A stretch of 64,000 nt of DNA from Poriferisphaera corsica (GTDB lineage Bacteria > Planctomycetota > Phycisphaerae > Phycisphaerales > Phycisphaeraceae): the NCBI RefSeq assembly GCF_007747445.1, contig NZ_CP036425.1, forward strand, positions 3,208,175-3,272,174. The letters run 5' to 3'. How positions within the stretch are numbered: position 1 is the first letter of the stretch; each line of letters opens with the position of its first letter. The notes below the pieces were generated by a model, which did no database searches, was not told the origin of the DNA, and was given only the letters and a program-made list of their open reading frames with translations. Shown piece by piece: positions 53,008 to 64,000 of this stretch. The position numbers and the translations under genes were made by a program.

Positions 53008-54354
53008 ATGATCTTTCATTTTTCTTTATATGGGTTTTTGAAAAATCAACGGTATTTTGAGCCGTTTTTGATGTTGGCGCTGTTGGATAAGAGGCTAAGC
53101 TTTTTCTGGATTGGTTTGTTGATCGGGATCCGGGAAGTGGCAACGAATGTGATGGAGATTCCGACGGGTGCGTTTGCGGATACGCTAGGGCGGCGGTACG
53201 CGATGATTGCTTCACATGTGGCTTATATCGGTGCGTTTATCTGTCTGGGGCTGTTTCGGCAGTTTGGGTTATTGGCAGCGGCGATGCTGATGTTCTCGAT
53301 TGGGGAAGCATTCAGAACGGGAACGCACAAGGCGATGATCTTTTCGTGGTTGAAGGCTAATAACAAGTTAGACGAAAAGAAACACATCTATGGATATACG
53401 CGGTCGTGGTCGAAGATGGGGACGGCGGTAGGCGCGCTGATTGCGGCGGGGTTATTATTGGTGACGCAGCGATATGATTGGGTTTTTTACATGTCGGCGG
53501 TGCCGATGGCTTTTGGGATTGTGAACTTCTTGTGTTATCCGAGTTGCGTGGAGTCGCCGACGACAGCGCAATCGAAGTTGTTGAAGCAGGGGGAATGTTC
53601 ACATGATGAGCCTATGGGTGGGTATGAGAAGATATCGGTGGGGCGCGTGGTGCGGACGCTTTGGAACGGGATTAAGAAGTCGTGGGTGGATCGGAAATTA
53701 CGAGCGTTATTGATTGAGGATGTGACGTTTGAGGCGATGTTTAAGGCGACGAAGGATTACTTGCAGCCAATTTTGCAGGCGGCGGCGGTGGCAGTGCCGG
53801 TGGGGGCGCTAATGGGGATACAGATGACGGAGACGCAGCGGACAGTGGTACTGGTGGCGGTGGTGTATGCGGTGCTATCAGTGATGGCGAGTATAGCGTC
53901 GCGGCGATCGGGTAAATTTAGTGAGCGGTTTGAAAATGATGCTTTGGCGACGAAGGCGATCTGGAGTTTGTGTCTGTGTTCGTTTGCAGTGGTCGGGATG
54001 GGGGTGCTGATGGGGTGGTATTTTGCGATCGCGCTGGGGTTTGTGGCGGTGGCGGTTTTCCAGAATTTATGGCGGCCGCTGCTGATTTCACGGATCTCGA
54101 ATTATGCGGATGACGAGACGATGGCGACGGTGCTATCGGTGGAATCACAGGGCAAAACAATGTTGACGGCAGTGATGGCGCCGCTGCTGGGTTTAGCGGT
54201 GGATTGGATGATGCGACAAGAGATGGGGAACGAGGCGTGGCAGTACGGGCCGATTGTAGTACTGGGGCTTGGGGTGTGTTTGTGGTTCAGATTTGCGGGG
54301 AAGAAGGAAGCGCGAAAAATTGTCTCGCAGAAAGAGATTGCGGCGTGGAAGTAA
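53008..54354 (+). CDS. Major facilitator superfamily transporter
   Basis: A 448-residue permease with about 12 transmembrane helices. The first conserved loop is visible as GAFADTLGRRYAMIASHVAY (G-x-x-x-D-x-x-G-R-R type), and a second-half equivalent is weak. Helix 1-2 has LIGIREVATNVMEIPTGAFA, a pattern common in DHA-like or uncharacterised MFS. AGGTG lies about 7 nt before the ATG. The gene is extremely G-rich on its sense strand (GTGGCGGTGG runs). Substrate unknown. Confidence 0.88.
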   Translation: MIFHFSLYGFLKNQRYFEPFLMLALLDKRLSFFWIGLLIGIREVATNVMEIPTGAFADTLGRRYAMIASHVAYIGAFICLGLFRQFGLLAAAMLMFSIGEAFRTGTHKAMIFSWLKANNKLDEKKHIYGYTRSWSKMGTAVGALIAAGLLLVTQRYDWVFYMSAVPMAFGIVNFLCYPSCVESPTTAQSKLLKQGECSHDEPMGGYEKISVGRVVRTLWNGIKKSWVDRKLRALLIEDVTFEAMFKATKDYLQPILQAAAVAVPVGALMGIQMTETQRTVVLVAVVYAVLSVMASIASRRSGKFSERFENDALATKAIWSLCLCSFAVVGMGVLMGWYFAIALGFVAVAVFQNLWRPLLISRISNYADDETMATVLSVESQGKTMLTAVMAPLLGLAVDWMMRQEMGNEAWQYGPIVVLGLGVCLWFRFAGKKEARKIVSQKEIAAWK

Positions 54355-54477
54355 AAAGATTGGTGAGGTTTCGCGCTTCCTCACAGACTTGAGTTGAGTT
54401 TGGAAACGACGGCTCCGCCACCGCGGTGGTAGGCTTGATGCGCGATCGTGTGCAAGATGGGAAACTTTGGGAAGAGA

Positions 54478-54506
54478 AAAAAGCTCGCAACTAGTGCGAG
54501 CTTTTT
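54478..54506. terminator. Bidirectional terminator between MFS and response regulator genes
   Basis: AAAAAGCTCGC-aactagt-GCGAGCTTTTT, with an A-run on the left and a T-run on the right. It can end both the MFS transcript and the convergent two-component operon. Confidence 0.93.
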
Positions 54507-54546
54507 AGGTTTTTGTTTACATGTCAAGAGGTATGAGAGGATGAGG

Positions 54547-55176
54547 TCATGCGGGACTAGCTTTGACGGCGCCTTCGACGGCGACGGCCATGCGTACGAG
54601 CTCGGCGAGGGAGCCTGCGTTCATTTTTTCCATGACGTGTGCGCGGTGGACTTCGATGGTTTTGTGCGAAAGGTCGAGTTCGGCTGCGATTTGTTTATTG
54701 AGGCGGCCTTGCACGACAAGGTCCATGACCTGTCGTTCGCGGGGAGTGAGGCGTTTGAGGCGTGTTTCAATTTCGCCTCGCTGCATCATGGATTCACGTC
54801 GTTCGGCATCTTGTTCGAGCGCATCACGGATGCGATCGAGGAGGACTTGATCGGAGAAAGGTTTCTCGATGAAGTCGAGTGCGCCGGCTTTCATAGCTCG
54901 GATGGCGACGGGGACGTCGCCGTGACCTGTAATGATGATGACGGGGAGGCGTATCCCGCGTTTTTTGAGCTGATCTTGTAGGTCGAGTCCAGACATGCCT
55001 GGCAGACGGACATCGACTACGAGAGCTCCTGCGGTGGCTCCTTCACACTCATTAAGGAAATCCATAGCGGTTTCGTAGTTTTTCACCTGAAGGCCAACGG
55101 ATTCGATGAGCCACTTTAGTGAGTCACGAACGGCCTTATCATCATCGACAACATATACGGTTGGGTTCTCGTTCAT
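54547..55176 (-). CDS. FixJ/NarL-type response regulator
   Basis: A 209-residue regulator. The receiver domain has the acidic pair VVDDDKAVRDSL, phospho-acceptor Asp in ALVVDVRLPGMSGLDLQ (about residue 57), Thr in VIIITGHGDVPVAI and Lys in DFIEKPFSD. The C-terminal LuxR-type helix-turn-helix is at about 140-200 (LTPRERQVMDLVVQGRLNKQ; SHKTIEVHRAHVMEKM). This order and the FIEKPF signature match FixJ. It lies 150 bp downstream of a large sensor kinase on the same strand and is very likely its partner. Confidence 0.95.
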   Translation of the reverse strand: MNENPTVYVVDDDKAVRDSLKWLIESVGLQVKNYETAMDFLNECEGATAGALVVDVRLPGMSGLDLQDQLKKRGIRLPVIIITGHGDVPVAIRAMKAGALDFIEKPFSDQVLLDRIRDALEQDAERRESMMQRGEIETRLKRLTPRERQVMDLVVQGRLNKQIAAELDLSHKTIEVHRAHVMEKMNAGSLAELVRMAVAVEGAVKASPA

Positions 55177-55326
55177 AAGCTTGCTTAGTTGTCGGGAAGC
55201 GTCATTAGTGAGGTCACTTTGACCCTTAGTGACGTATCCCCCTGTGCCCTGATATTACTTACATGATAACGTAAATTTTGCGACTTCAACAACAGTAACT
55301 ATTAAATTCTCCTACCGGGAAAAATC

Positions 55327-58300
55327 TTAGTCGCCTAGTTCATCGATTTCATCTGGGTCTTCACAAATTGGTAACGTCATGAAGAAGGTGAGGCCGGGTG
55401 TATTGGTATTGGGAGAAGCCCAGAGTTTGCCGCCGTGATTTTCTACGATGGATTGGCTAATTGTCAGTCCCATACCCATTCCATCGGATTTTGTACTGAA
55501 AAAAGGGTTAAAAATTTGTTTGATCTGTTCTTCAGTGGCTCCGATACCTGAGTCAGATACGGCCAGTTCAACGAGAGTTGAGTCGTCAGGTGAGATGCGA
55601 GAGGAAAGCGTCAATTGCCTATCCTCCGCGGGGGTTTCCCTCATCGCTTCGCCGGCATTTCGGACGAGATTGAGGACAACTTGTTCAATTTGGATCGCAT
55701 CGACGCCTATATTTGGAGTGCCCGTATCAAGGTTGTCCCTAACAGTGATACGGTTATCACGGTTTTCGGCGGCACAAAGTTCGAGAACGTCGTGGACGAT
55801 TTCGTTCACTGAAACAAAATTCTTTTGGGATTCACGTTTACGAACGAAATTTCGCATGCGTCGGATGATTTCCCCGGCTCGCTGCGCCTGGTTGCCGACA
55901 TTGGCAAGGGCTTCGATGAGGGTATCTTTGTCGATGTTGTCCATTTCGACGCGCTTGCGGCAGCCGAAAACATAGTTGCTGATAGCTGCGAGGGGTTGGT
56001 TGAGTTCGTGTGCAAGGCCGGAGGCCATTTCGCCCATTGTTGAGAGGCGGGCAACATGCGCGAGCTCATCACGGCGACGGCGTTCGAGCTCTTCAGCTTG
56101 TTTTTGTTCAGAAACGTCACGTTGGATTGAAACGAAGTTTGCGACTTCACCTTTTTCATCGCGAACTGGGGTGATGTGCCACTGGACGGTGTACTCTTTG
56201 CCATCTTTGCGGTAGTTAACGGTTTCGCCGGTGCATGGACGGCCTGTTTCGAGAGCGGTGCGGAGTTCGTTGAGTACAGAACGGTCAGTGTTTACGCCTT
56301 GAAGCACGCGAGGGGTTTGACCGACGATGTCGGCGGCGGCCCAGCCGGTCATGTGCTCGAAGGATGGGTTAACGTAGATAATCTCTGGGCCGGGGTGGTC
56401 GATACGGGCATCGGTGATGATGACGGCTTCGTCAATCTGGTCGATTGCGGTACGAACGAGTTTCCAGACTTGCTCGGCGTTGATGCGATCTGTGATGTCG
56501 GCAGAGATACCGCAGACGCCGGTTACTTTGTTATCAGAACCGTAGAGTGGGAATTTGATGGAGAGATTAACGCGAGGCTCGCCGTTAATCATCGCGGCTT
56601 CTTCAAACTCGATCGTTTTGCCATTGCTCATGACTTCGATGTCATTCGTCCGGTAGAGATTGGCAAGTTGTGGCCTGAAGATGTCGCTATCGGTTTTACC
56701 AACAACATCGGTGATTTTGCGCTGATAGCGTTGCTCGAACATGCGGTTGATGAAGAGGTATTTGCCGTCAGCATCTTTAAGGTAGATTGATGCTGGGGTG
56801 TTGTCGAGAATGCCTTGGAGGCGTTGTTCGGATTCTCGGAGACGATCTTCAGCGATTTTACGTTCGGTGATATCACGCGAGACGGCGAGGCCGCCATAGA
56901 TGTAGCCGTTTTCCTCTCGAAGAGGCGTGAGGATGTATGAGAAGCGTCGCTCGCCTTTGGTGGTCAGCATGTCGACTTCGCCGGATTGTGCTTGGCCACT
57001 GGCAAACATCGCTTTGGCTTTTTCAATCACTTGGCTCATACGATCAGGCGTAAATCCGACTTCGTATGGCGTTTTACCAAGGACGTATGACTCTTGGACG
57101 CCGTAGTCTTCGAGGATAGAAGCAGAAACCTGTAGCAGACGTGTTTGCGGATCAAATAGCCAAAGGTGGTCTGGCGAGGCGCTCATGATCGTGCTGAGCG
57201 TACGGGCCTGGTGCTCGGATTGCTCGGTTATGCGTTCGAGTTCTGCGGTACGCTGCATGACACGGCGTTCGAGTTGTTCGTTGAGCTCACGTAGTTTGAT
57301 TTCGTAGGACTGGCGTACAATCGCAGCGCCGAGTGTGCCTGCGACGGATCGGAGGAGATCGACTTCACGTTCGGACCAGTCGCGCTCTCGTGAACATTCA
57401 TCGAGTGCGATGTAACCCCACCATTGGCCGCCAGCAAAAATGGGAACTGCGACAACGGACTTAATACCTTTTGATGCGAGATCTCCGCGTTCTGATTCGG
57501 GCAAGTCTTTGACGTTGGCAAAGATGGTTTGATTGGCGATAAGCAGGTCGTGCCAACGCTGGAAGCCAGCTTTATCGTAGGGTATGGCTTCACAACGTGG
57601 TTTGACGCGTTCAGGCGGTATGTTGACGTTTTGCCATTCGTGAATTTGCGTGAAGAGGAGGTCGCCGACTTCAACTATGTAGTTTTTGCTGGGGTCGTCG
57701 ATGGGGCAGACACCGTAATGAATGTCGGCTTTGGTGGCTTCATGGTTTTTGAAGATGAAGACGTAGGAAACGCCGGTGGCAACACCGATGCGATCAAGGA
57801 CTTCGGGGAGACGAGACTCCCATGCGCCCATGCGGAGGAATTGTTCGACGGCGAAATGAACTGCATCCAGGATGGTATCGCGGGCTTCGAGTTGCTCCTC
57901 ATGGATTTTGCCTGCGGTGACGTCCCAGATGGCGCCTTTGAGATAGAGTGGCGGGTCGTGATCGGGGTCGGGGACCACTTGGCCGACTTCACGTACCCAT
58001 CGCCAAGAACCGTTACGGTGTTTAATGCGGTAAGTGAGGCGATATTCTTCTCTAGATTGTGCGGATTGCTGGATAACACTTTTCACACGTCTAGCATCGT
58101 CGCCGTGGATGAGTTCGCCGAAGGTTAGACCCTCATCCAGGAATTGAGATTTGTCGTATCCGGTAAGTGCTTCAACAGCCTCGTTGAGGTAGATCATGGT
58201 GTAGTGCGGCGGGTCGTTTTTACAGAAGTAGACAACCCCGGGCGCGTATTCGAGGACAGAACGGAATTGGTCGGCAAAATTGGGTATTAGTTGTTCTTGC

Positions 58301-58398
58301 AATCGGTAGGTATCGAGGCTTTTTTGAAGCTTTGAGACCTGATCTTGCAAATGTTGGACACTTTGGCTGAGGTTGTTCTGATCGTCTGATTTTGTCAT
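55327..58398 (-). CDS. Multi-PAS/GAF sensor histidine kinase (FixL-like)
   Basis: A 1023-residue kinase with no transmembrane helix, so it senses inside the cell. Domains in order: coiled coil (about 8-40); PAS 1 (about 60-170, VVYFCKNDPPHYTMIYLNEAVEALT split over two strands, ending in a PAC); GAF (about 190-370, KSVVAVPIFAGGQWWGYIAL); coiled coil; PAS 2 (about 400-515); PAS 3 (about 530-650, IYLKDADGKYLFINRMFEQR); PAS 4 (about 655-780, with ENPGPEII-like NPSFEHMTGW); the FixL-type H-box GLAHELNQPLAAISNYVFGC; and the ATPase with N box NLVRNAGEAM, DSGIG and GMGLTISQSIVENHGG. No heme-binding His context is certain. Forms an operon with the FixJ-type regulator. Confidence 0.95.
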   Translation of the reverse strand: MTKSDDQNNLSQSVQHLQDQVSKLQKSLDTYRLQEQLIPNFADQFRSVLEYAPGVVYFCKNDPPHYTMIYLNEAVEALTGYDKSQFLDEGLTFGELIHGDDARRVKSVIQQSAQSREEYRLTYRIKHRNGSWRWVREVGQVVPDPDHDPPLYLKGAIWDVTAGKIHEEQLEARDTILDAVHFAVEQFLRMGAWESRLPEVLDRIGVATGVSYVFIFKNHEATKADIHYGVCPIDDPSKNYIVEVGDLLFTQIHEWQNVNIPPERVKPRCEAIPYDKAGFQRWHDLLIANQTIFANVKDLPESERGDLASKGIKSVVAVPIFAGGQWWGYIALDECSRERDWSEREVDLLRSVAGTLGAAIVRQSYEIKLRELNEQLERRVMQRTAELERITEQSEHQARTLSTIMSASPDHLWLFDPQTRLLQVSASILEDYGVQESYVLGKTPYEVGFTPDRMSQVIEKAKAMFASGQAQSGEVDMLTTKGERRFSYILTPLREENGYIYGGLAVSRDITERKIAEDRLRESEQRLQGILDNTPASIYLKDADGKYLFINRMFEQRYQRKITDVVGKTDSDIFRPQLANLYRTNDIEVMSNGKTIEFEEAAMINGEPRVNLSIKFPLYGSDNKVTGVCGISADITDRINAEQVWKLVRTAIDQIDEAVIITDARIDHPGPEIIYVNPSFEHMTGWAAADIVGQTPRVLQGVNTDRSVLNELRTALETGRPCTGETVNYRKDGKEYTVQWHITPVRDEKGEVANFVSIQRDVSEQKQAEELERRRRDELAHVARLSTMGEMASGLAHELNQPLAAISNYVFGCRKRVEMDNIDKDTLIEALANVGNQAQRAGEIIRRMRNFVRKRESQKNFVSVNEIVHDVLELCAAENRDNRITVRDNLDTGTPNIGVDAIQIEQVVLNLVRNAGEAMRETPAEDRQLTLSSRISPDDSTLVELAVSDSGIGATEEQIKQIFNPFFSTKSDGMGMGLTISQSIVENHGGKLWASPNTNTPGLTFFMTLPICEDPDEIDELGD

Positions 58399-58860
58399 TG
58401 AGAAGGCTCGATAGCGGCGAGGGGCTCCGATATGAATATGATCGCGTAAGCGGGGCTCAAGACCGTAATTAGCGTGAAATATATGTCACTATAGGCCGTT
58501 GTGAGGGTTAAAAGAAAGCGACTGATGTGACAGCACTATGATAATCGGTATCGGACATGAAAAACAGGGTGAAAAGTTTGGGGTCTTGATCAGAAAAATA
58601 TTGGCGAAAACAAAGGTTAAGTGATTGGAGATAGGGGGTTGAGGGAAAGGAGGATGTGGGATGGGCTAAAGGACTTTACAAGGGGGCTGGGCGCTGCAAT
58701 ACTTTTAGAGTGTCGCTCGTCATTACTCACGCATTGACTGGTTGGTCGATTGCGGAGAACGAAATGTTATTCGTGGGTTGGCTGCTTAAATTACAAATCC
58801 AGTCCAGTGAATAATGATGTAAGGCACAGTATTTATTGCCCCCGTATAAGGGAAGTTGCA
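58399..58860. other. Intergenic region upstream of the sensor kinase
   Basis: About 460 bp with no convincing gene. It should contain the kinase promoter, reading left, which I could not assign. Confidence 0.4.
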
Positions 58861-58947
58861 GGGCCGTCTGAGACTGTCATAGGTTCTTGGAATGGACTGT
58901 TTTTCTGGAAAAGGAAAGCGGATGTGGGTTCGAACCCCACACGGCCA
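58861..58947 (+). tRNA. Degenerate tRNA-Ser-like sequence (GGA anticodon loop)
   Basis: The 3' half is a perfect T-arm (GTGGG-TTCGAAC-CCCAC, 58924-58940) followed by ACGGCC, which pairs with GGCCGT at 58862-58867 for a 6-bp acceptor. Between them, GGTTC-TTGGAAT-GGACT gives a 5-bp anticodon stem (two G-U pairs) with GGA in the loop, and TTTTC-tg-GAAAA a variable-arm-like stem, as in tRNA-Ser. The D-arm is only TGA-gactg-TCA and lacks the conserved GG. No CCA; the discriminator would be A, not the serine G. Either a decayed tRNA gene or a tRNA-like RNA; I do not regard it as a normal tRNA. Confidence 0.4.
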
Positions 58948-58978
58948 ATTGCCCGGATCATCGTGCATCGTAGTATTA

Positions 58979-59020
58979 GCAGCGACATGCATGGTTTCGG
59001 CGTTTTAAAAATGTCGCTGC
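58979..59020 (+). other. Long-loop inverted repeat before the RNase Z-like gene
   Basis: GCAGCGACAT (58979-58988) and ATGTCGCTGC (59011-59020) are perfectly complementary with a 22-nt spacer. No T-run follows, so it is not a normal terminator. It ends 21 bp before the ATG of the next gene and could act as an operator or leader hairpin. Confidence 0.6.
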
Positions 59021-59041
59021 GAAAGATGTAAGGTGTTCGTG

Positions 59042-59947
59042 ATGATCCCACGTGAACCGGCGCGTAATCCGAATTTAGGCTTTCTCTATATTCCCCCGTA
59101 TCGCATTCAAGGCATCTCGATTGCTGGTGAGCAATCGGTGGTGCAGATCCCTGAGTTAGATTTGGTTTTTGATATTGGTTTGGCGCCGAGGACGGCGTTG
59201 ACGAGTAACTTTTGTGCGCTAACGCATGGGCACATGGATCATGCGGCTGGGATTGCCTATTACTATTCGCAACGATACTTCCAGGGAATGGGGGCCGGGA
59301 CGGTGGTCTGCCCGAAGGCGATTGAGCAGGCGATTCATAATGTGATGGGCGCTTGGGTGGATTTGGAAGCGCAGAAGACGCCATACAAGGTGATTGGCCT
59401 GGCTCACGAGGAAGAGGTTGAAATCAAAAACAATATCTTCCTGAAGGGATTTGAAACGCAGCATACGGTGCCTTCGCTTGGGTATACGGTGATTGAGAAG
59501 CGATCGAAGTTGCGTAGTGATTTGGTGGGCCTGCCACAGGAGCAGTTGCTTGCGATGAAGGAGAAGGGGGAAGAAATCACGCAGACATTGCATATCCCGT
59601 TGGTATGTTATACGGGTGACACGATGTGGGGTGATCATTTTGATCGTGAGGATGTACTGAACGCGAAGATCTTGATTACAGAATGTACGTTCTTGGAAGA
59701 TGATCACAAATCAAGGGCGGGCGTCGGCAAGCATTTACATCTGGACAATGTGATTGAGCTGCTTGAAAAGGCAAAATCGGATGCGGTCGTGCTTGTGCAT
59801 ACTTCGCGACGAACGCACATTGCTCAAGTGAAGAAGACGCTGAATGAACGAATTCCGCGTGAGTATCAGGACAAGCTGTTTGTATTGATGGATAACCGGA
59901 CGAACAAGCAGCGATATCAGAAGCAGTTGGAAGAGGCTGAAGATTAA
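59042..59947 (+). CDS. Metallo-beta-lactamase fold hydrolase, RNase Z-like
   Basis: A 301-residue protein from the ATG at 59042 (AAGGTG upstream). The zinc motif is ALTHGHMDHAAG (His62, His64, Asp66, His67), with the bridging Asp in VCYTGDTMWGD and a late His in VVLVHTSRRTH. Also typical are the N-terminal strand LVFDIGLAPRTALTSNF and the long insertion between them. This matches RNase Z/ElaC-like nucleases, which trim tRNA 3' trailers, but the flexible arm characteristic of true RNase Z (GP-rich) is not clear, so a related hydrolase is possible. It lies just downstream of the tRNA-like sequence. A terminator follows. Confidence 0.8.
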   Translation: MIPREPARNPNLGFLYIPPYRIQGISIAGEQSVVQIPELDLVFDIGLAPRTALTSNFCALTHGHMDHAAGIAYYYSQRYFQGMGAGTVVCPKAIEQAIHNVMGAWVDLEAQKTPYKVIGLAHEEEVEIKNNIFLKGFETQHTVPSLGYTVIEKRSKLRSDLVGLPQEQLLAMKEKGEEITQTLHIPLVCYTGDTMWGDHFDREDVLNAKILITECTFLEDDHKSRAGVGKHLHLDNVIELLEKAKSDAVVLVHTSRRTHIAQVKKTLNERIPREYQDKLFVLMDNRTNKQRYQKQLEEAED

Positions 59948-60001
59948 TAATCACAGCTCAAGAAGCATTTTTAACGCTTTACAACAATTTTAGTGATCAT
60001 G

Positions 60002-60028
60002 AAAGCCCTGCGATTGCAGGGCTTTTTC
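60002..60028 (+). terminator. Intrinsic terminator of the RNase Z-like gene
   Basis: AAAGCCCTGC-gatt-GCAGGGCTTT followed by TTC, 55 bp after the stop and 32 bp before the next start. Confidence 0.92.
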
Positions 60029-60059
60029 TTGCGTGGGTAGGGTTGGGTATAATGTTTTG

Positions 60060-60881
60060 ATGCAGGAAGATAGTTTCAGATTGGCGGTTACCAAGGGGGC
60101 AGCAGATCACTATGCGATGATTAGTGATGTGGGGGAATTGGTTGAGGATCAAGGACAGGCGGTTATCAAGGGGTTTGATGCGGTGGTTGATTGGGATAAA
60201 AACGATGAGCGGCTGATCGTTCGGTTTTTAAAGATGGACAAGAAGATGGGGGGGAAACTGGGATCACTGCAATTTGATCTGACAGGCATTGATGTGAAGT
60301 CAGGGCATGGACGATCACTAAAGCAGCCGATCGCAAAAGCGGTGGGAATTAAACGGGGAGATGCGTGGCGACCCAAGGTTCTGGACTGCACAGCGGGGCT
60401 TGGGGAAGACGGATTCCTGCTGGCTGCATTTGGGTGTGAAGTGACCCTGATCGAACAACATCCACTCGTCTATGCAATGCTTAGAGATGCAATCAATAAA
60501 GCGGGTCAAGGGGACGAAGGATTGGCTGAGATTGTTGGGCGGATGGATCTGAGGCCCGGCAATGCGATCACTACAATGCGCGAATTAGAATCCGATGCAT
60601 ATGACGTGGTGTATCTTGATCCGATGTACCCCGAGAAGAAACGTCATGTATCAGCGCGAACAAAAAAATCGATCTGGTTTTTAAGGCAGTTACTGGGACA
60701 CGATGAAGCGGATTCGGATAACACGGTTGGCCTTTTTGAACAAGCGATTGCGGTCGCAAATAAGCGGGTTGTGGTCAAACGACCAAACCATGCGCCACCA
60801 CTGATCAATGAAGCGCATAAGAAACCGGAAGCAAGCCACAAGGGCAAGTCGTTCCGGTTTGATGTGTATCCGAGACATTAG
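60060..60881 (+). CDS. rsmJ: 16S rRNA (guanine-1516-N2)-methyltransferase
   Basis: A 273-residue RsmJ-like methyltransferase that modifies G1516 of 16S rRNA. The SAM-binding motif is VLDCTAGLGEDGFLLAAFGC (about 110-130), followed by VTLIEQHPLVYAMLRDA and the catalytic VVYLDPMYPEKKR. KRVVVKRPNHAPPL lies near the C-terminus. The ATG at 60060 is preceded at only 6 nt by a perfect TATAAT (60048-60053) and no Shine-Dalgarno, so the mRNA is predicted to begin at or next to the start codon. Converges on doxX with a 10-bp gap. Confidence 0.92.
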   Translation: MQEDSFRLAVTKGAADHYAMISDVGELVEDQGQAVIKGFDAVVDWDKNDERLIVRFLKMDKKMGGKLGSLQFDLTGIDVKSGHGRSLKQPIAKAVGIKRGDAWRPKVLDCTAGLGEDGFLLAAFGCEVTLIEQHPLVYAMLRDAINKAGQGDEGLAEIVGRMDLRPGNAITTMRELESDAYDVVYLDPMYPEKKRHVSARTKKSIWFLRQLLGHDEADSDNTVGLFEQAIAVANKRVVVKRPNHAPPLINEAHKKPEASHKGKSFRFDVYPRH

Positions 60882-60891
60882 TGCAATCATA

Positions 60892-61368
60892 TTACGAACT
60901 AGAAGCCAACTCTTTTTCGTGCGTATTTACTTGACTCTTTTTATTTCGATAGAAGAGTTGGGAAAGGCTCAGACGACCTGGGCCTGTAAAACAAAGCGTG
61001 AAAGCACCGAACATGTAGAGTAGATTGAGTTCAATTTCAATGCCGCCATGTTCATTCAACGCGAAACCTCCAAGCCCATCGGTTAAATAGACAGCCATGA
61101 TCATCGTGAAGGCTAAAATTGCGGCAGCTGGTCGAATTAAAAAACCAACTATGATAAGAATAGGCGCAACGGTTTCACCAAGGTGCACACCATAGGCCAT
61201 GACACCTGGAAGGCCTTGATCAATAAGATCGAGTTTAATATCATCGATACCTCCGGAAATTTTTGAAATACCGTGAAAGAGCATCAGGATGCCAAGTGAT
61301 AAGCGTAGCATCAACAGTCCAATATCGTTTTGTAGTCGCTTCAAATCGCTTTGATTACAAACAGGCAT
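60892..61368 (-). CDS. DoxX family membrane protein
   Basis: A 158-residue inner-membrane protein with four predicted helices: LGILMLFHGISKISGGIDDI, VHLGETVAPILIIVGFLIR, AAILAFTMIMAVYL and LLYMFGAFTLCFTGPGR. The GxHGxxK-like first helix and final GPGRLSLSQLF are DoxX traits. DoxX proteins are linked to thiol redox and quinone homeostasis. AAAGGA lies 9 nt before the ATG. It is 36 bp downstream of a marR gene and is probably under its control. Confidence 0.92.
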   Translation of the reverse strand: MPVCNQSDLKRLQNDIGLLMLRLSLGILMLFHGISKISGGIDDIKLDLIDQGLPGVMAYGVHLGETVAPILIIVGFLIRPAAAILAFTMIMAVYLTDGLGGFALNEHGGIEIELNLLYMFGAFTLCFTGPGRLSLSQLFYRNKKSQVNTHEKELASSS

Positions 61369-61404
61369 AATTAAAGTTCCTTTACTGCATGATAAGTTGT
61401 TGTT

Positions 61405-61917
61405 CTATCGATTCTGAATCGTTGGTGTGATTTTGGCCAACAGTTTTAATAGCTGGATTCTTTCTTTTTTAGTTAGAGCATCGAACAATGGATCCACTTG
61501 CTTGAAGTGAGTGGGAAGGATCTTTGCGATCAATTTTCTGCCTTTACGCGAAAGTTTTATGAATGAAGATCGGCCATCACTGGGGTTCGATTCACGCTCA
61601 ATCATTTGCTGATCTTGTAGATTTTTCAACAAGCCGGTAACGGTAGCCCGGCTTGAACTTACGGTTTGGGCAATACGTGCGGGCGTCCATTGTTCATTAC
61701 TGAGTAGAAAGAGCAGCACCATGATTGCAAAGCGACCTTGCGATAAACCAAATTGGGAAAAATGAGATTCTGCGCCAAGAATGGTGAGATGAGCAAAATC
61801 CATCAAAGCTAGCTGTGTTTCAATCAACTCGGTATTAGCAGATGGGTACTGCTCCGCAATTGCAGAGATCAGTTTAGTACGTGTTTTATCCTGCGGGACA
61901 ACGGTTTGTGTGGTCAT
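61405..61917 (-). CDS. MarR family transcriptional regulator
   Basis: A 170-residue winged-helix regulator. The recognition helix and wing are at about 80-120: WTPARIAQTVSSSRATVTGL, LKNLQDQQMIERESNPSDGR and SSFIKLSRKGRKLIAKI. GAGAG lies before the ATG. A twin palindrome in its upstream region (61937-61974) is the likely operator. It probably represses itself and doxX until it binds an inducer or is oxidised. No cysteine is in the expected OhrR position, so phenolic-type ligand sensing is more likely than peroxide sensing. Confidence 0.93.
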   Translation of the reverse strand: MTTQTVVPQDKTRTKLISAIAEQYPSANTELIETQLALMDFAHLTILGAESHFSQFGLSQGRFAIMVLLFLLSNEQWTPARIAQTVSSSRATVTGLLKNLQDQQMIERESNPSDGRSSFIKLSRKGRKLIAKILPTHFKQVDPLFDALTKKERIQLLKLLAKITPTIQNR

Positions 61918-61936
61918 CGCTGACTCTCTCTTATAC

Positions 61937-61974
61937 TAGTTAGGTACCTTATTATATAGTTCGGCACCTAACTA
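61937..61974 (-). promoter_or_regulatory. Predicted MarR operator: twin palindromes
   Basis: TAGTTAGGTACC (61937-61948) and GGCACCTAACTA (61963-61974) form a 12-bp inverted repeat, 11 of 12 matching. Each half is itself part of a palindrome (AGGTACCT; AGTTCGGCACCTAACT, imperfect). A TATAAG -10-like hexamer of the leftward promoter lies just inside, at 61930-61935, so bound repressor would block RNA polymerase. Confidence 0.75.
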
Positions 61975-62054
61975 TCAATAATATTTGTTTAAAAATAGGA
62001 CGTCCGAATGCGTCAGTATTTGACTTAAAGAACATTCGACGACATACAGACATT

Positions 62055-62083
62055 AAAAAAGCCCCTGCAGTGCAGAGGCTTTT
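62055..62083 (-). terminator. Intrinsic terminator of secDF
   Basis: AAAAGCCCCTGCA-g-TGCAGAGGCTTTT is a near-perfect stem with one mismatch. On the minus strand it continues into TTTTTTA. It lies about 21 bp beyond the secDF stop. Confidence 0.88.
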
Positions 62084-62103
62084 CATGTTAGCTATGAGGT
62101 TGA

Positions 62104-64000
62104 TCAGTCAAGGACTGGTTTGCGATCATAATCGCCGTTACTGCTGCCATCAGATGACATGGGTGAGTTCTTGGATGGCTTTTGAGCACCAAGAATGAGG
62201 AGGGTTGGCGAAGCAATCGCGATGGATGAGTAGGTACCGACGACGACACCGATGATCATGGCAAAGGCAAAGCCGTGAACGCCTGAACCGCCGAGCGTGT
62301 AGAGGGTAATCACAGCGAGGAGTGTGGTTGAGGAGGTGAGGATCGTACGGCTGATCGTTTGATTGATCGAGTCGTTGATAATCTTCGGTGTGATGTATGA
62401 GAGGCGGCCCTTGTTTTCGCGGATACGGTCAAAGACAACAATCGTGTCGTTGAGTGAGTAACCGACGATGGTGAGAAGGGCTGCAATCATCGCAAGATTG
62501 ATCTTGAACGGGTCAAGTAAGAAGAGTTCAAAGATGTCTGCTTCAGAAGCGTAGAGCCAGCCACAGATAGCGACGAGGCCGAGTGTGATGGCAACGTCAT
62601 GGACGAGTGCGAAGATGGCTGCGATGCCGTAGCGGAGCGATCCGAAACGGAACCAGATATAAGCGACAACAGCGAGCAGTGAGAGCACCATCGCGACGAT
62701 CGCCTGCTGTTTCATGGTCGATGAGACCTGAGACGAGAAGTTGGTCACGCCAGTGAGGCTGGTGTCGCGCTGGAGTGCATCACGGATCAGGTTCCATTCA
62801 GTGTCAGCGAAGCCGCCTGCATCGTCGAGCGTGTCGGGGTCTTCAGCATAGTTAGGTGAACCTGCGGTGTTGGTGATGACGACGACTTCGTCGTAGACAC
62901 CTTCCTGAACCGTGCGGCTGCCCTTGGTGACATTCTTAGTGCCAACCTGATTGATGCCGATGACTTCAGCGGCACGGTGGCCGAGTGATTGATAGGCTGG
63001 CTGGAAACGCATTCGCGTGATGCGTTGTGCGATTTCTTCAGTCGTTTGCGGCTCGGACATGCCCTTGACGACAGTTGCCACGCCGCCGATGTATTCACTG
63101 ACGTTAGCTGAGACAGTCGGTTGACCAATATCAGCGCCAAGGTCAGCAGATTTGATGGCGAAGACAGGAGCCAGCGCGACGTTTTCAGCGTTAACACCGT
63201 CGAAGTCGATTGGTTTGGTTGTTTCAAGACTGTCTTCAAAAGCAATCTTAGTCAGGTCGCTGACAGCTTGTGAATCCGTCATGAGTGTTGAGATAGAGAA
63301 GGCGCTGGCAAGGGTTTGCTTATCGTCTCTTTGAGTTTGACCTTCGGTGACAACGTCGGAGTTAGCGAAGTCTTCGAAATCGAGGCCGTCTGGTTCTGAT
63401 TTATATTCGCCGGCTGCGATAGCGGCATCATATTCAGCGATCGCGTTTTCGTAGCGTGTTTTTGCTTCAGCTACGATCGGCGAAACTTTGTCTTTCAGCT
63501 CGTTGTAGATGCTTTGTTCGTCAGCAGTCGGCTGATCGCCATGCTGTATGAGGGCTGCAACGATACCGAAACTTTCAATACGTTCACGAACGGTTGAGAT
63601 CGGAAGGGTTTCACCCTCACGGAGATCGAAAGACACTTGTGTACCTGAGCGGAATTCGATGTCGAGCATCTCATTGCCTTGCTCCCAGACCATAAAGAAG
63701 CCTGCGACGATGAGGATGCAACTGATTGCGAAGAAAGCATAACGCTTGGCGACCCAATCGACGTTGGGATGGAGAATCTTCTTGAGGCCTGGCACGAGCG
63801 TTGGAAGCATCGTGATGGACTTAGCCATACGGAAGTGAAAGATCGTATCGATGATGGTACGTGTGCAGAACAGTGCGGTGAAGAGGGTCGCGATGATACC
63901 GATACCGAGTGTCACGGCGAAGCCTTTGACTTCAGCGGATGCGGTATAGCCGAGCACGAGACAGGTAATCAAGGTGGTGATATTAGCGTCAAGAATGGTC
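62104..64000 (-). CDS. secDF: Protein translocase SecDF fusion, 3' part
   Basis: Open to the right end of the window; about 630 residues of the C-terminal part are visible. They begin in the last SecD membrane region (TILDANITTLITCLVLGYTA and KGFAVTLGIGIIATLFTALF) and run into a complete SecF: VWEQGNEMLDIEFRSGTQVSF, a periplasmic region, then five helices with GSLRYGIAAIFALVHDVAIT, TIVGYSLNDTIVVFDRIREN and TLLILGA. SecDF uses proton motive force to pull exported proteins. The SecF periplasmic region is about 300 residues, roughly three times normal, with an acidic, repetitive, Asp/Ala-rich middle. Start not in the window. Confidence 0.95.
   Translation of the reverse strand, partial: TILDANITTLITCLVLGYTASAEVKGFAVTLGIGIIATLFTALFCTRTIIDTIFHFRMAKSITMLPTLVPGLKKILHPNVDWVAKRYAFFAISCILIVAGFFMVWEQGNEMLDIEFRSGTQVSFDLREGETLPISTVRERIESFGIVAALIQHGDQPTADEQSIYNELKDKVSPIVAEAKTRYENAIAEYDAAIAAGEYKSEPDGLDFEDFANSDVVTEGQTQRDDKQTLASAFSISTLMTDSQAVSDLTKIAFEDSLETTKPIDFDGVNAENVALAPVFAIKSADLGADIGQPTVSANVSEYIGGVATVVKGMSEPQTTEEIAQRITRMRFQPAYQSLGHRAAEVIGINQVGTKNVTKGSRTVQEGVYDEVVVITNTAGSPNYAEDPDTLDDAGGFADTEWNLIRDALQRDTSLTGVTNFSSQVSSTMKQQAIVAMVLSLLAVVAYIWFRFGSLRYGIAAIFALVHDVAITLGLVAICGWLYASEADIFELFLLDPFKINLAMIAALLTIVGYSLNDTIVVFDRIRENKGRLSYITPKIINDSINQTISRTILTSSTTLLAVITLYTLGGSGVHGFAFAMIIGVVVGTYSSIAIASPTLLILGAQKPSKNSPMSSDGSSNGDYDRKPVLD

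Follow-up and report, generated by a model that had tools for sequence, protein, structure and literature searches.

A tRNA-like structure (TLS) was found in front of the RNase Z-like gene (rnz) of Poriferisphaera corsica, and its best explanation, to which we give a probability of about 0.6, is that it belongs to the untranslated 5' region of the mRNA for RNase Z, where it would be cut by RNase Z with RNase P and would serve a substrate-sensing autoregulation. The element, located in a 64,000-nt stretch of DNA (the window), is real and more than chance, and as judged from its sequence all that is retained in it is the acceptor stem and the T-arm, the minihelix that is recognised by RNase P and RNase Z. 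A tRNA-Ser, a simply decaying gene and an integration scar are all rejected as descriptions of it.

The tRNA-like element

The earlier note on this DNA had described a tRNA-Ser-like sequence with a T-arm, a 6-bp acceptor and a following A, and these parts were confirmed at their places, the A being at 58947 (Table 1). The acceptor and T-arm make up an 11-bp coaxial stack with a TTCGAAC loop and are followed by the trailer TTGCCC without CCA, which is the form expected of a minihelix substrate of RNase P and RNase Z, and an RNase Z cut site is predicted after 58947 or 58948. The minimum-energy fold closed the acceptor and placed a hairpin on it, and it also formed a 10-bp hairpin and the T-arm (z = -2.8; 2 of 200 shuffles were equally stable). 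With a first scoring scheme the minihelix score was 36, compared with a maximum of 23.5 in 40 shuffles; with a second it was 42, a value reached by one of 1348 control windows, by eye a complete tRNA.

Table 1. Features of the rnz leader and its surroundings (positions within the window)
Feature	Position	Strand	Remarks
Only tRNA-Cys(GCA) gene found in the P. corsica genome	46350..46423	+
Predicted leader promoter, TTTACA-17-AATACT	58675..58703	+	TG before the -10; sole promoter-like site in 58500-60050, 1.9 expected by chance
tRNA-like structure (TLS), predicted rnz leader	58861..58947	+	from sequence, fold, scans and sister comparison
Acceptor 5' strand GGCCGT	58862..58867	+	partner is 58941-58946; pair probabilities 0.97-1.0 at element positions 2-6
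Diverged core	58868..58923	+	takes the place of the D and anticodon arms and the variable region; predicted to form two hairpins
T-arm GTGGG-TTCGAAC-CCCAC	58924..58940	+
Acceptor 3' strand ACGGCC, then A A	58941..58948	+	L005 identical including the trailer TTGCCCGGAT
Leader stem GCAGCGACAT (58979-58988)/ATGTCGCTGC (59011-59020)	58979..59020	+	22-nt loop; 21 nt before ATG; 0/30 shuffles as good
rnz, short RNase Z-like metallo-beta-lactamase, 301 aa	59042..59947	+	Pfam Lactamase_B_2

The GGA anticodon arm proposed in the same note turned out to be the weak part of the description, since the minimum-energy fold differs and the arm was not found in the sister species; nor was an anticodon arm with a 7-nt loop common to the relatives found there. 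No tRNA was called at the element by ARAGORN, and the dozens of spurious calls given at a threshold lowered to 60% were disregarded. The covariance search that had been advised did list the site (14.4 bits, E 9.4), as the last of 48 hits of the Rfam tRNA model (RF00005) in the whole genome, but with a score below the gathering score of 29, above which 44 hits lay. A tmRNA match (RF00023) was rejected; in a lax scan of 801 bases it reached 13.2 bits against a gathering score of 47, covered the T-arm region only and skipped 304 positions.

Other tRNA-like pieces were seen in the P. corsica genome. One (L248:1518-1596, G000:C1:1262317-1262395; 23.8 bits) is a second tRNA-like element with a 7-bp acceptor, a T-arm, one long hairpin and no anticodon arm, standing just before a helicase-like gene in what by eye resembles a phage gene cluster. 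Two pieces below the cut-off (L249, G000:C1:2748106-2748169, 16.6 bits; L247, G000:C1:2102694-2102746, 25 bits, about 140 nt from a tRNA-Arg) contain a tRNA 3' half and are possibly integration-site remnants.

The rnz gene and its leader

As the earlier note had stated, an RNase Z-like gene begins 95 nt downstream of the element, with its ATG at 59042. Its product scored 69.9 bits with the NCBIfam RNase_Z model, below the curated equivalog cut-off of 293, and the model stayed below its own cut-off in 5 of 14 control genomes too. No other protein of the genome matched RNase Z as well as this product (66.8 bits; runner-up 28.8), its HxHxDH motif, HGHMDH, is invariant in 23 aligned sequences, and among solved structures rice RNase ZS1 (7xgt, E 3e-56) is nearest to it, ahead of the tRNase Z of Thermotoga maritima (E 3e-23). 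In P. corsica CCA follows the end, as given by ARAGORN, in none of the 44 tRNA genes, and the rnz enzyme should therefore be needed for tRNA 3' ends.

The hexamers of the predicted promoter recur, with the same 17-nt spacer, upstream of the element of the sister species (L002). Between the element and rnz neither a promoter-like nor a terminator-like site was seen, shuffles averaging 1.9 and 1.3 such sites; neither the match to a promoter nor the lack of further sites carries much weight, as both are within what shuffles give by chance. A stem between the place of the element and the ATG that none of 30 shuffles equalled was found in 14 of 44 family genomes only. Similar stems, with arms often like GGTCAGC...GCTGACC, a loop of 20-30 nt and a position 10-21 nt before the rnz ATG, are also present in TLS-less genomes; besides P. 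corsica, loci with such a stem are L006, L010, L013, L025, L033, L198-L201 and L203. In many rnz genes of other Phycisphaerae groups (L043-L050, L228-L246) a hairpin with a GAAA-type loop was seen by eye directly before the Shine-Dalgarno sequence, within the last 45 nt before the rnz ATG.

Across all elements, the distance to the start codon was 37-180 nt. In 25 of 26 elements the trailer has a TT, either immediately behind the discriminator position or shifted by one base, T-rich trailers being common after the tRNAs of the P. corsica genome anyway.

Comparison with the sister species

When 61 genomes were searched at the DNA level, three had a match, namely P. corsica itself, the other Poriferisphaera species (ZRK32) and G027, whose 26-nt match was dropped as it adjoins an ordinary tRNA-Met. 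The element of the sister species is flanked by the same two genes as in P. corsica, one for a histidine kinase and one for the RNase Z-like protein; it is 11 nt shorter, and its ends, that is the acceptor, the T-arm and 10 nt of the trailer, are the same. Identity between the two species was 30/31 in the minihelix, 33/57 (58%) in the core, 48/91 (53%) in the 80 nt upstream and 80/98 from the element to the ATG. From these identities it follows that the core evolves like the flank, whereas the minihelix and, less so, the stretch after the element do not. In seven such sister comparisons, six of them clear-cut, the minihelix was 86-100% and the core 38-91% identical. In L219/L221 minihelix, core and flank were equally conserved (94, 91 and 94%).

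Two of the origins that had been put forward earlier are disfavoured by these data: a decaying tRNA gene, because drift is seen in the core but conservation in the minihelix, and an attachment-site remnant, because the element has the same two neighbours in the sister species and no integrase was found among the eight neighbouring proteins (Pfam scan, 53008-63972). A search of 58700-59100 against phages likewise gave no match.

Distribution and descent within the Phycisphaeraceae

Searches with the RNase Z-like protein located it in 56 of 61 relatives; of the 51 family genomes, 47 have it. The DNA upstream of rnz was read for 44 of the 47, G068 and G073 being left out for a missing gene start and G069 (L093) being assigned to neither group, as it has a hairpin at the place of the TLS but no T-loop. 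Ten of the 44 genomes have a tRNA-Cys before rnz, 16 a TLS and 18 neither, so that the element is dispensable. The count of 16 comprises 10 that reached the scan threshold of 36 and six classed by eye, whose scores were 35, 32, 32, 29, 23 and none and two of which (G035, G027) are weak. Scores of at least 36 were thus obtained before rnz in 20 of the 44 genomes (10 tRNA-Cys, 10 TLS) and in 12 of 1348 control windows (57 of 80 named loci), the highest of which by eye is a real tRNA. The minihelix scans picked distant 5' strands for some loci, and in the scan with the first scheme the loci without a candidate, displayed as 0, are misses.

The tRNA upstream of rnz in the ten genomes was called as tRNA-Cys(GCA) by ARAGORN, and none of the ten assemblies had a second full tRNA-Cys match, one having a further 25-nt match; some of these assemblies are incomplete (51-82%). 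In P. corsica the only tRNA-Cys lies 12.6 kb upstream of rnz, and in ZRK32 about 18 kb; the P. corsica gene is presumably a relocated working copy. From the end of the tRNA-Cys genes to the rnz ATG there are 125-244 nt; 13 of the 16 TLS end 75-97 nt before the ATG, the others at 115, 153 and 180 nt. An enlarged variable region is unusual for tRNA-Cys, and tRNA-Cys genes with such a region, 80-84 nt long, were seen before rnz at L011, L014, L018, L020, L029 and L035.

When the ends of the element were compared with all 44 tRNA genes of the genome, tRNA-Cys fitted best (44; next 35), and in relatives tRNA-Cys occupies the syntenic place, both of which speak against the tRNA-Ser identity that had been suggested. 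In whole-length alignment tRNA-Ser(UGA) (62.5) was slightly ahead of tRNA-Cys (59.5), as is expected if the core carries no signal. Descent from tRNA-Cys is favoured because the relatives' tRNA-Cys shares the place before rnz, and tRNA-Cys followed by rnz would be the ancestral order, since the TLS is without a decoding body; the rnz tree itself does not show tRNA-Cys first, as the early-branching pair G002 and G030 has a TLS. In that tree (72 rows, midpoint root) parallel conversion between tRNA-Cys and TLS is suggested by the five changes that their distribution needs, of which well-supported branches force only one.

A distant clade and the pairing of the minihelix

Elements similar to that of P. 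corsica were found before rnz in a distant clade. Of a sample of 30 loci 29 were read (L220 is without a gene start) and nine had a TLS, in each case 37-47 nt before the rnz ATG, these being all nine of the genomes read from this clade; a tenth element, L120, came from named contigs. The nine rnz genes form one clade (100/99) that is parted from the family elements (lineage A) by element-less genomes. Against the 30 tRNA genes of G075, L217, L218 and L223 were clearly and L226 and L120 narrowly closest to tRNA-Glu(UUC), so that this source is clear for three of ten elements; L222, L224 and L225 had no clear source, and tRNA-Cys was among the first three matches of none of the ten. L219 (1377-1460) and L221 (2436-2518) were closest to tRNA-Leu(GAG), better than to tRNA-Glu, and look as if the tRNA before rnz had been replaced. 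Intact tRNA-Glu(UUC) was present elsewhere in all five genomes searched. In relatives of the clade a tRNA-Glu(CTC) was seen on the opposite strand upstream of rnz (L228-L232, L235-L238, L241, L242, L244 and L204).

The elements of this clade differ in how much of a tRNA they keep. L217, with an anticodon loop of 4 nt, still scored 45.7 bits, above the Rfam tRNA cut-off, and was called 'tRNA-???' by ARAGORN; L218 was called tRNA-Trp and the other seven were uncalled. L223 has a 2-bp anticodon stub and an acceptor closing probability of only 0.29. Outside these ten elements, the best fold of L195 is without a T-arm.

Since MAFFT left the 5' strands of lineage A unaligned, pairs were counted by tool on the distant clade only. 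In its 10 sequences 92.5% of the minihelix cells were paired, compared with at most 64.2% in slid versions, and four pairs (7 cells) were changed on both sides, with a covariation score of 0.383 that 1 of 500 shuffles reached; a slide of +2 had as many double-changed pairs (4) and cells (7) but a lower score (0.202). For lineage A a pair table of 13 elements was made, with 5' strands chosen by hand and the weaker G035, G067 and G027 omitted, so that its counts lean towards structure: acceptor positions 2-5 were paired in 13/13 with G-C/A-T and C-G/T-A exchanges, the T-stem pair 50-64 was T-A, C-G, G-C or G-T in 13/13, and the outermost acceptor pair was lost in 3/13. The replacement of C-G by T-A was seen in three clades standing apart in the tree (G014; G008; G031/G072/G074). 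At the level of sequence, the pairing of the minihelix is maintained through double substitutions.

Proposed mechanism and alternatives

The earlier note had remarked on the substrates of RNase Z and had listed a tRNA-like RNA with another use among its options; the remark proved to be the key, and the option is supported. Our proposal is that cleavage of the leader by RNase Z exerts a feedback on rnz, because RNase Z and RNase P need the part that was kept and translation needs the part that was lost; tRNase Z, RNase P and the CCA enzyme are able to use acceptor/T-arm minihelices (PMC3714273). The element and rnz would be transcribed together, and RNase Z, with RNase P on the 5' side, would recognise the minihelix and cut just after the discriminator base. 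Such a cut would separate the leader and give a 5'-monophosphate mRNA that has a shorter life or is translated less. As pre-tRNAs would compete for RNase Z, spare enzyme would lower its own synthesis and an overload would relieve it. In our view the element very probably functions within the rnz leader, cleavage of the leader by RNase Z is likely, and a negative feedback on rnz has slightly better than even odds.

It is unlikely, albeit the strongest of the alternatives, that the element serves processing or stability without feedback, the mRNA being trimmed by RNase P and RNase Z in the way expected of a joint tRNA-Cys-rnz transcript, with the trimmed 5' end and the stem as the useful product. 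This agrees with the order of tRNA-Cys and rnz in 10 of 44 family genomes and with the stem between element and ATG in part of those genomes, but it leaves unexplained why trimming was retained after tRNA-Cys left and why the distant clade enlisted other tRNAs in front of rnz. We regard as improbable that RNase Z binds the element uncut, with a block of translation or a more stable RNA as the result, in the manner of synthetases that bind tRNA mimics within the mRNAs encoding them. Binding mimicry has a precedent in yeast HisRS (PMC6542539), and the loss of the outermost acceptor pair in some family elements might slow cleavage. Set against binding are the nearly universal TT of the trailer, which is expected if a cut site is kept but is common in trailers here anyway, and the distance of the elements from the start codon.

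A functionless tRNA-Cys pseudogene that decays and persists by chance is very improbable: its ends would match tRNA-Cys, its core would diverge and relatives would lack it, all of which is seen, but such a relic would not account for a minihelix that in most sister pairs is better conserved than core and flank, for compensated changes, for a like distance to the ATG in 13 of 16 elements or for similar elements in a distant clade. An unusual tRNA, Ser-like or other, that works in translation is scarcely credible, as the good T-arm and acceptor and the first place of tRNA-Ser(UGA) in whole-length alignment are outweighed by a covariance score of no more than 14.4 bits, by the lack of an anticodon arm in common with the sister species and by the regular tRNA-Ser(GGA) that was found when the genome was checked for an intact copy.

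Relation to known systems

In E. coli the thrS operator is a tRNA mimic in the mRNA of a synthetase, and in tRNA-tufB tRNA genes are co-transcribed with a protein gene. The tRNA-Cys-rnz order of the relatives would resemble tRNA-tufB if the two are co-transcribed, and it differs where the tRNA became an element kept for its processing domain. With the tRNA domain of tmRNA the element shares a minihelix without a D stem, but it shows no apparent tag reading frame and does not have the length of a tmRNA. The preferred reading, cleavage with feedback, resembles E. coli rne, rnc and pnp, which exert feedback on the decay of their own mRNAs (PMC3997798); in both cases the leader would hold the substrate of the nuclease it encodes, plausibly so that expression follows spare capacity, but the present case concerns RNase Z, with a reduced tRNA gene as the leader substrate and a regulation that is predicted. 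The yeast HisRS mRNA (PMC6542539) also mimics the tRNA substrate of its enzyme and competes with it; HisRS is bound at an anticodon mimic, whereas the element before rnz keeps the acceptor/T-arm minihelix and has lost the anticodon arm, which suits a processing nuclease. The pseudo-tRNA tRNA-Other of Bacillus cereus is likewise a tRNA-like gene unused in translation, but it flanks a genomic island, and the portion of PMC3399842 at hand mentions no RNase Z leader. In the openly licensed literature we found no report of a control of RNase Z through its own leader.

Significance

It is an even matter whether the elements together form a class of regulatory RNA, in which tRNA genes would have been repeatedly domesticated into minihelix sensors in RNase Z leaders, with at least two origins (tRNA-Cys in the family; tRNA-Glu, perhaps tRNA-Leu, in the distant clade), each sensor being cut by the enzyme and reporting RNase Z relative to the whole pre-tRNA load, and in which living species would still present a series that starts with an ordinary tRNA and ends with an element stripped to about 55 nt. 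If true, this would be a clear case of tRNA genes becoming a regulatory element, which happened again in a second clade and can be tested in the cultured strains P. corsica KS4 and ZRK32. It would also mean that the enzyme that should here finish every pre-tRNA measures its own workload by means of a built-in decoy substrate.
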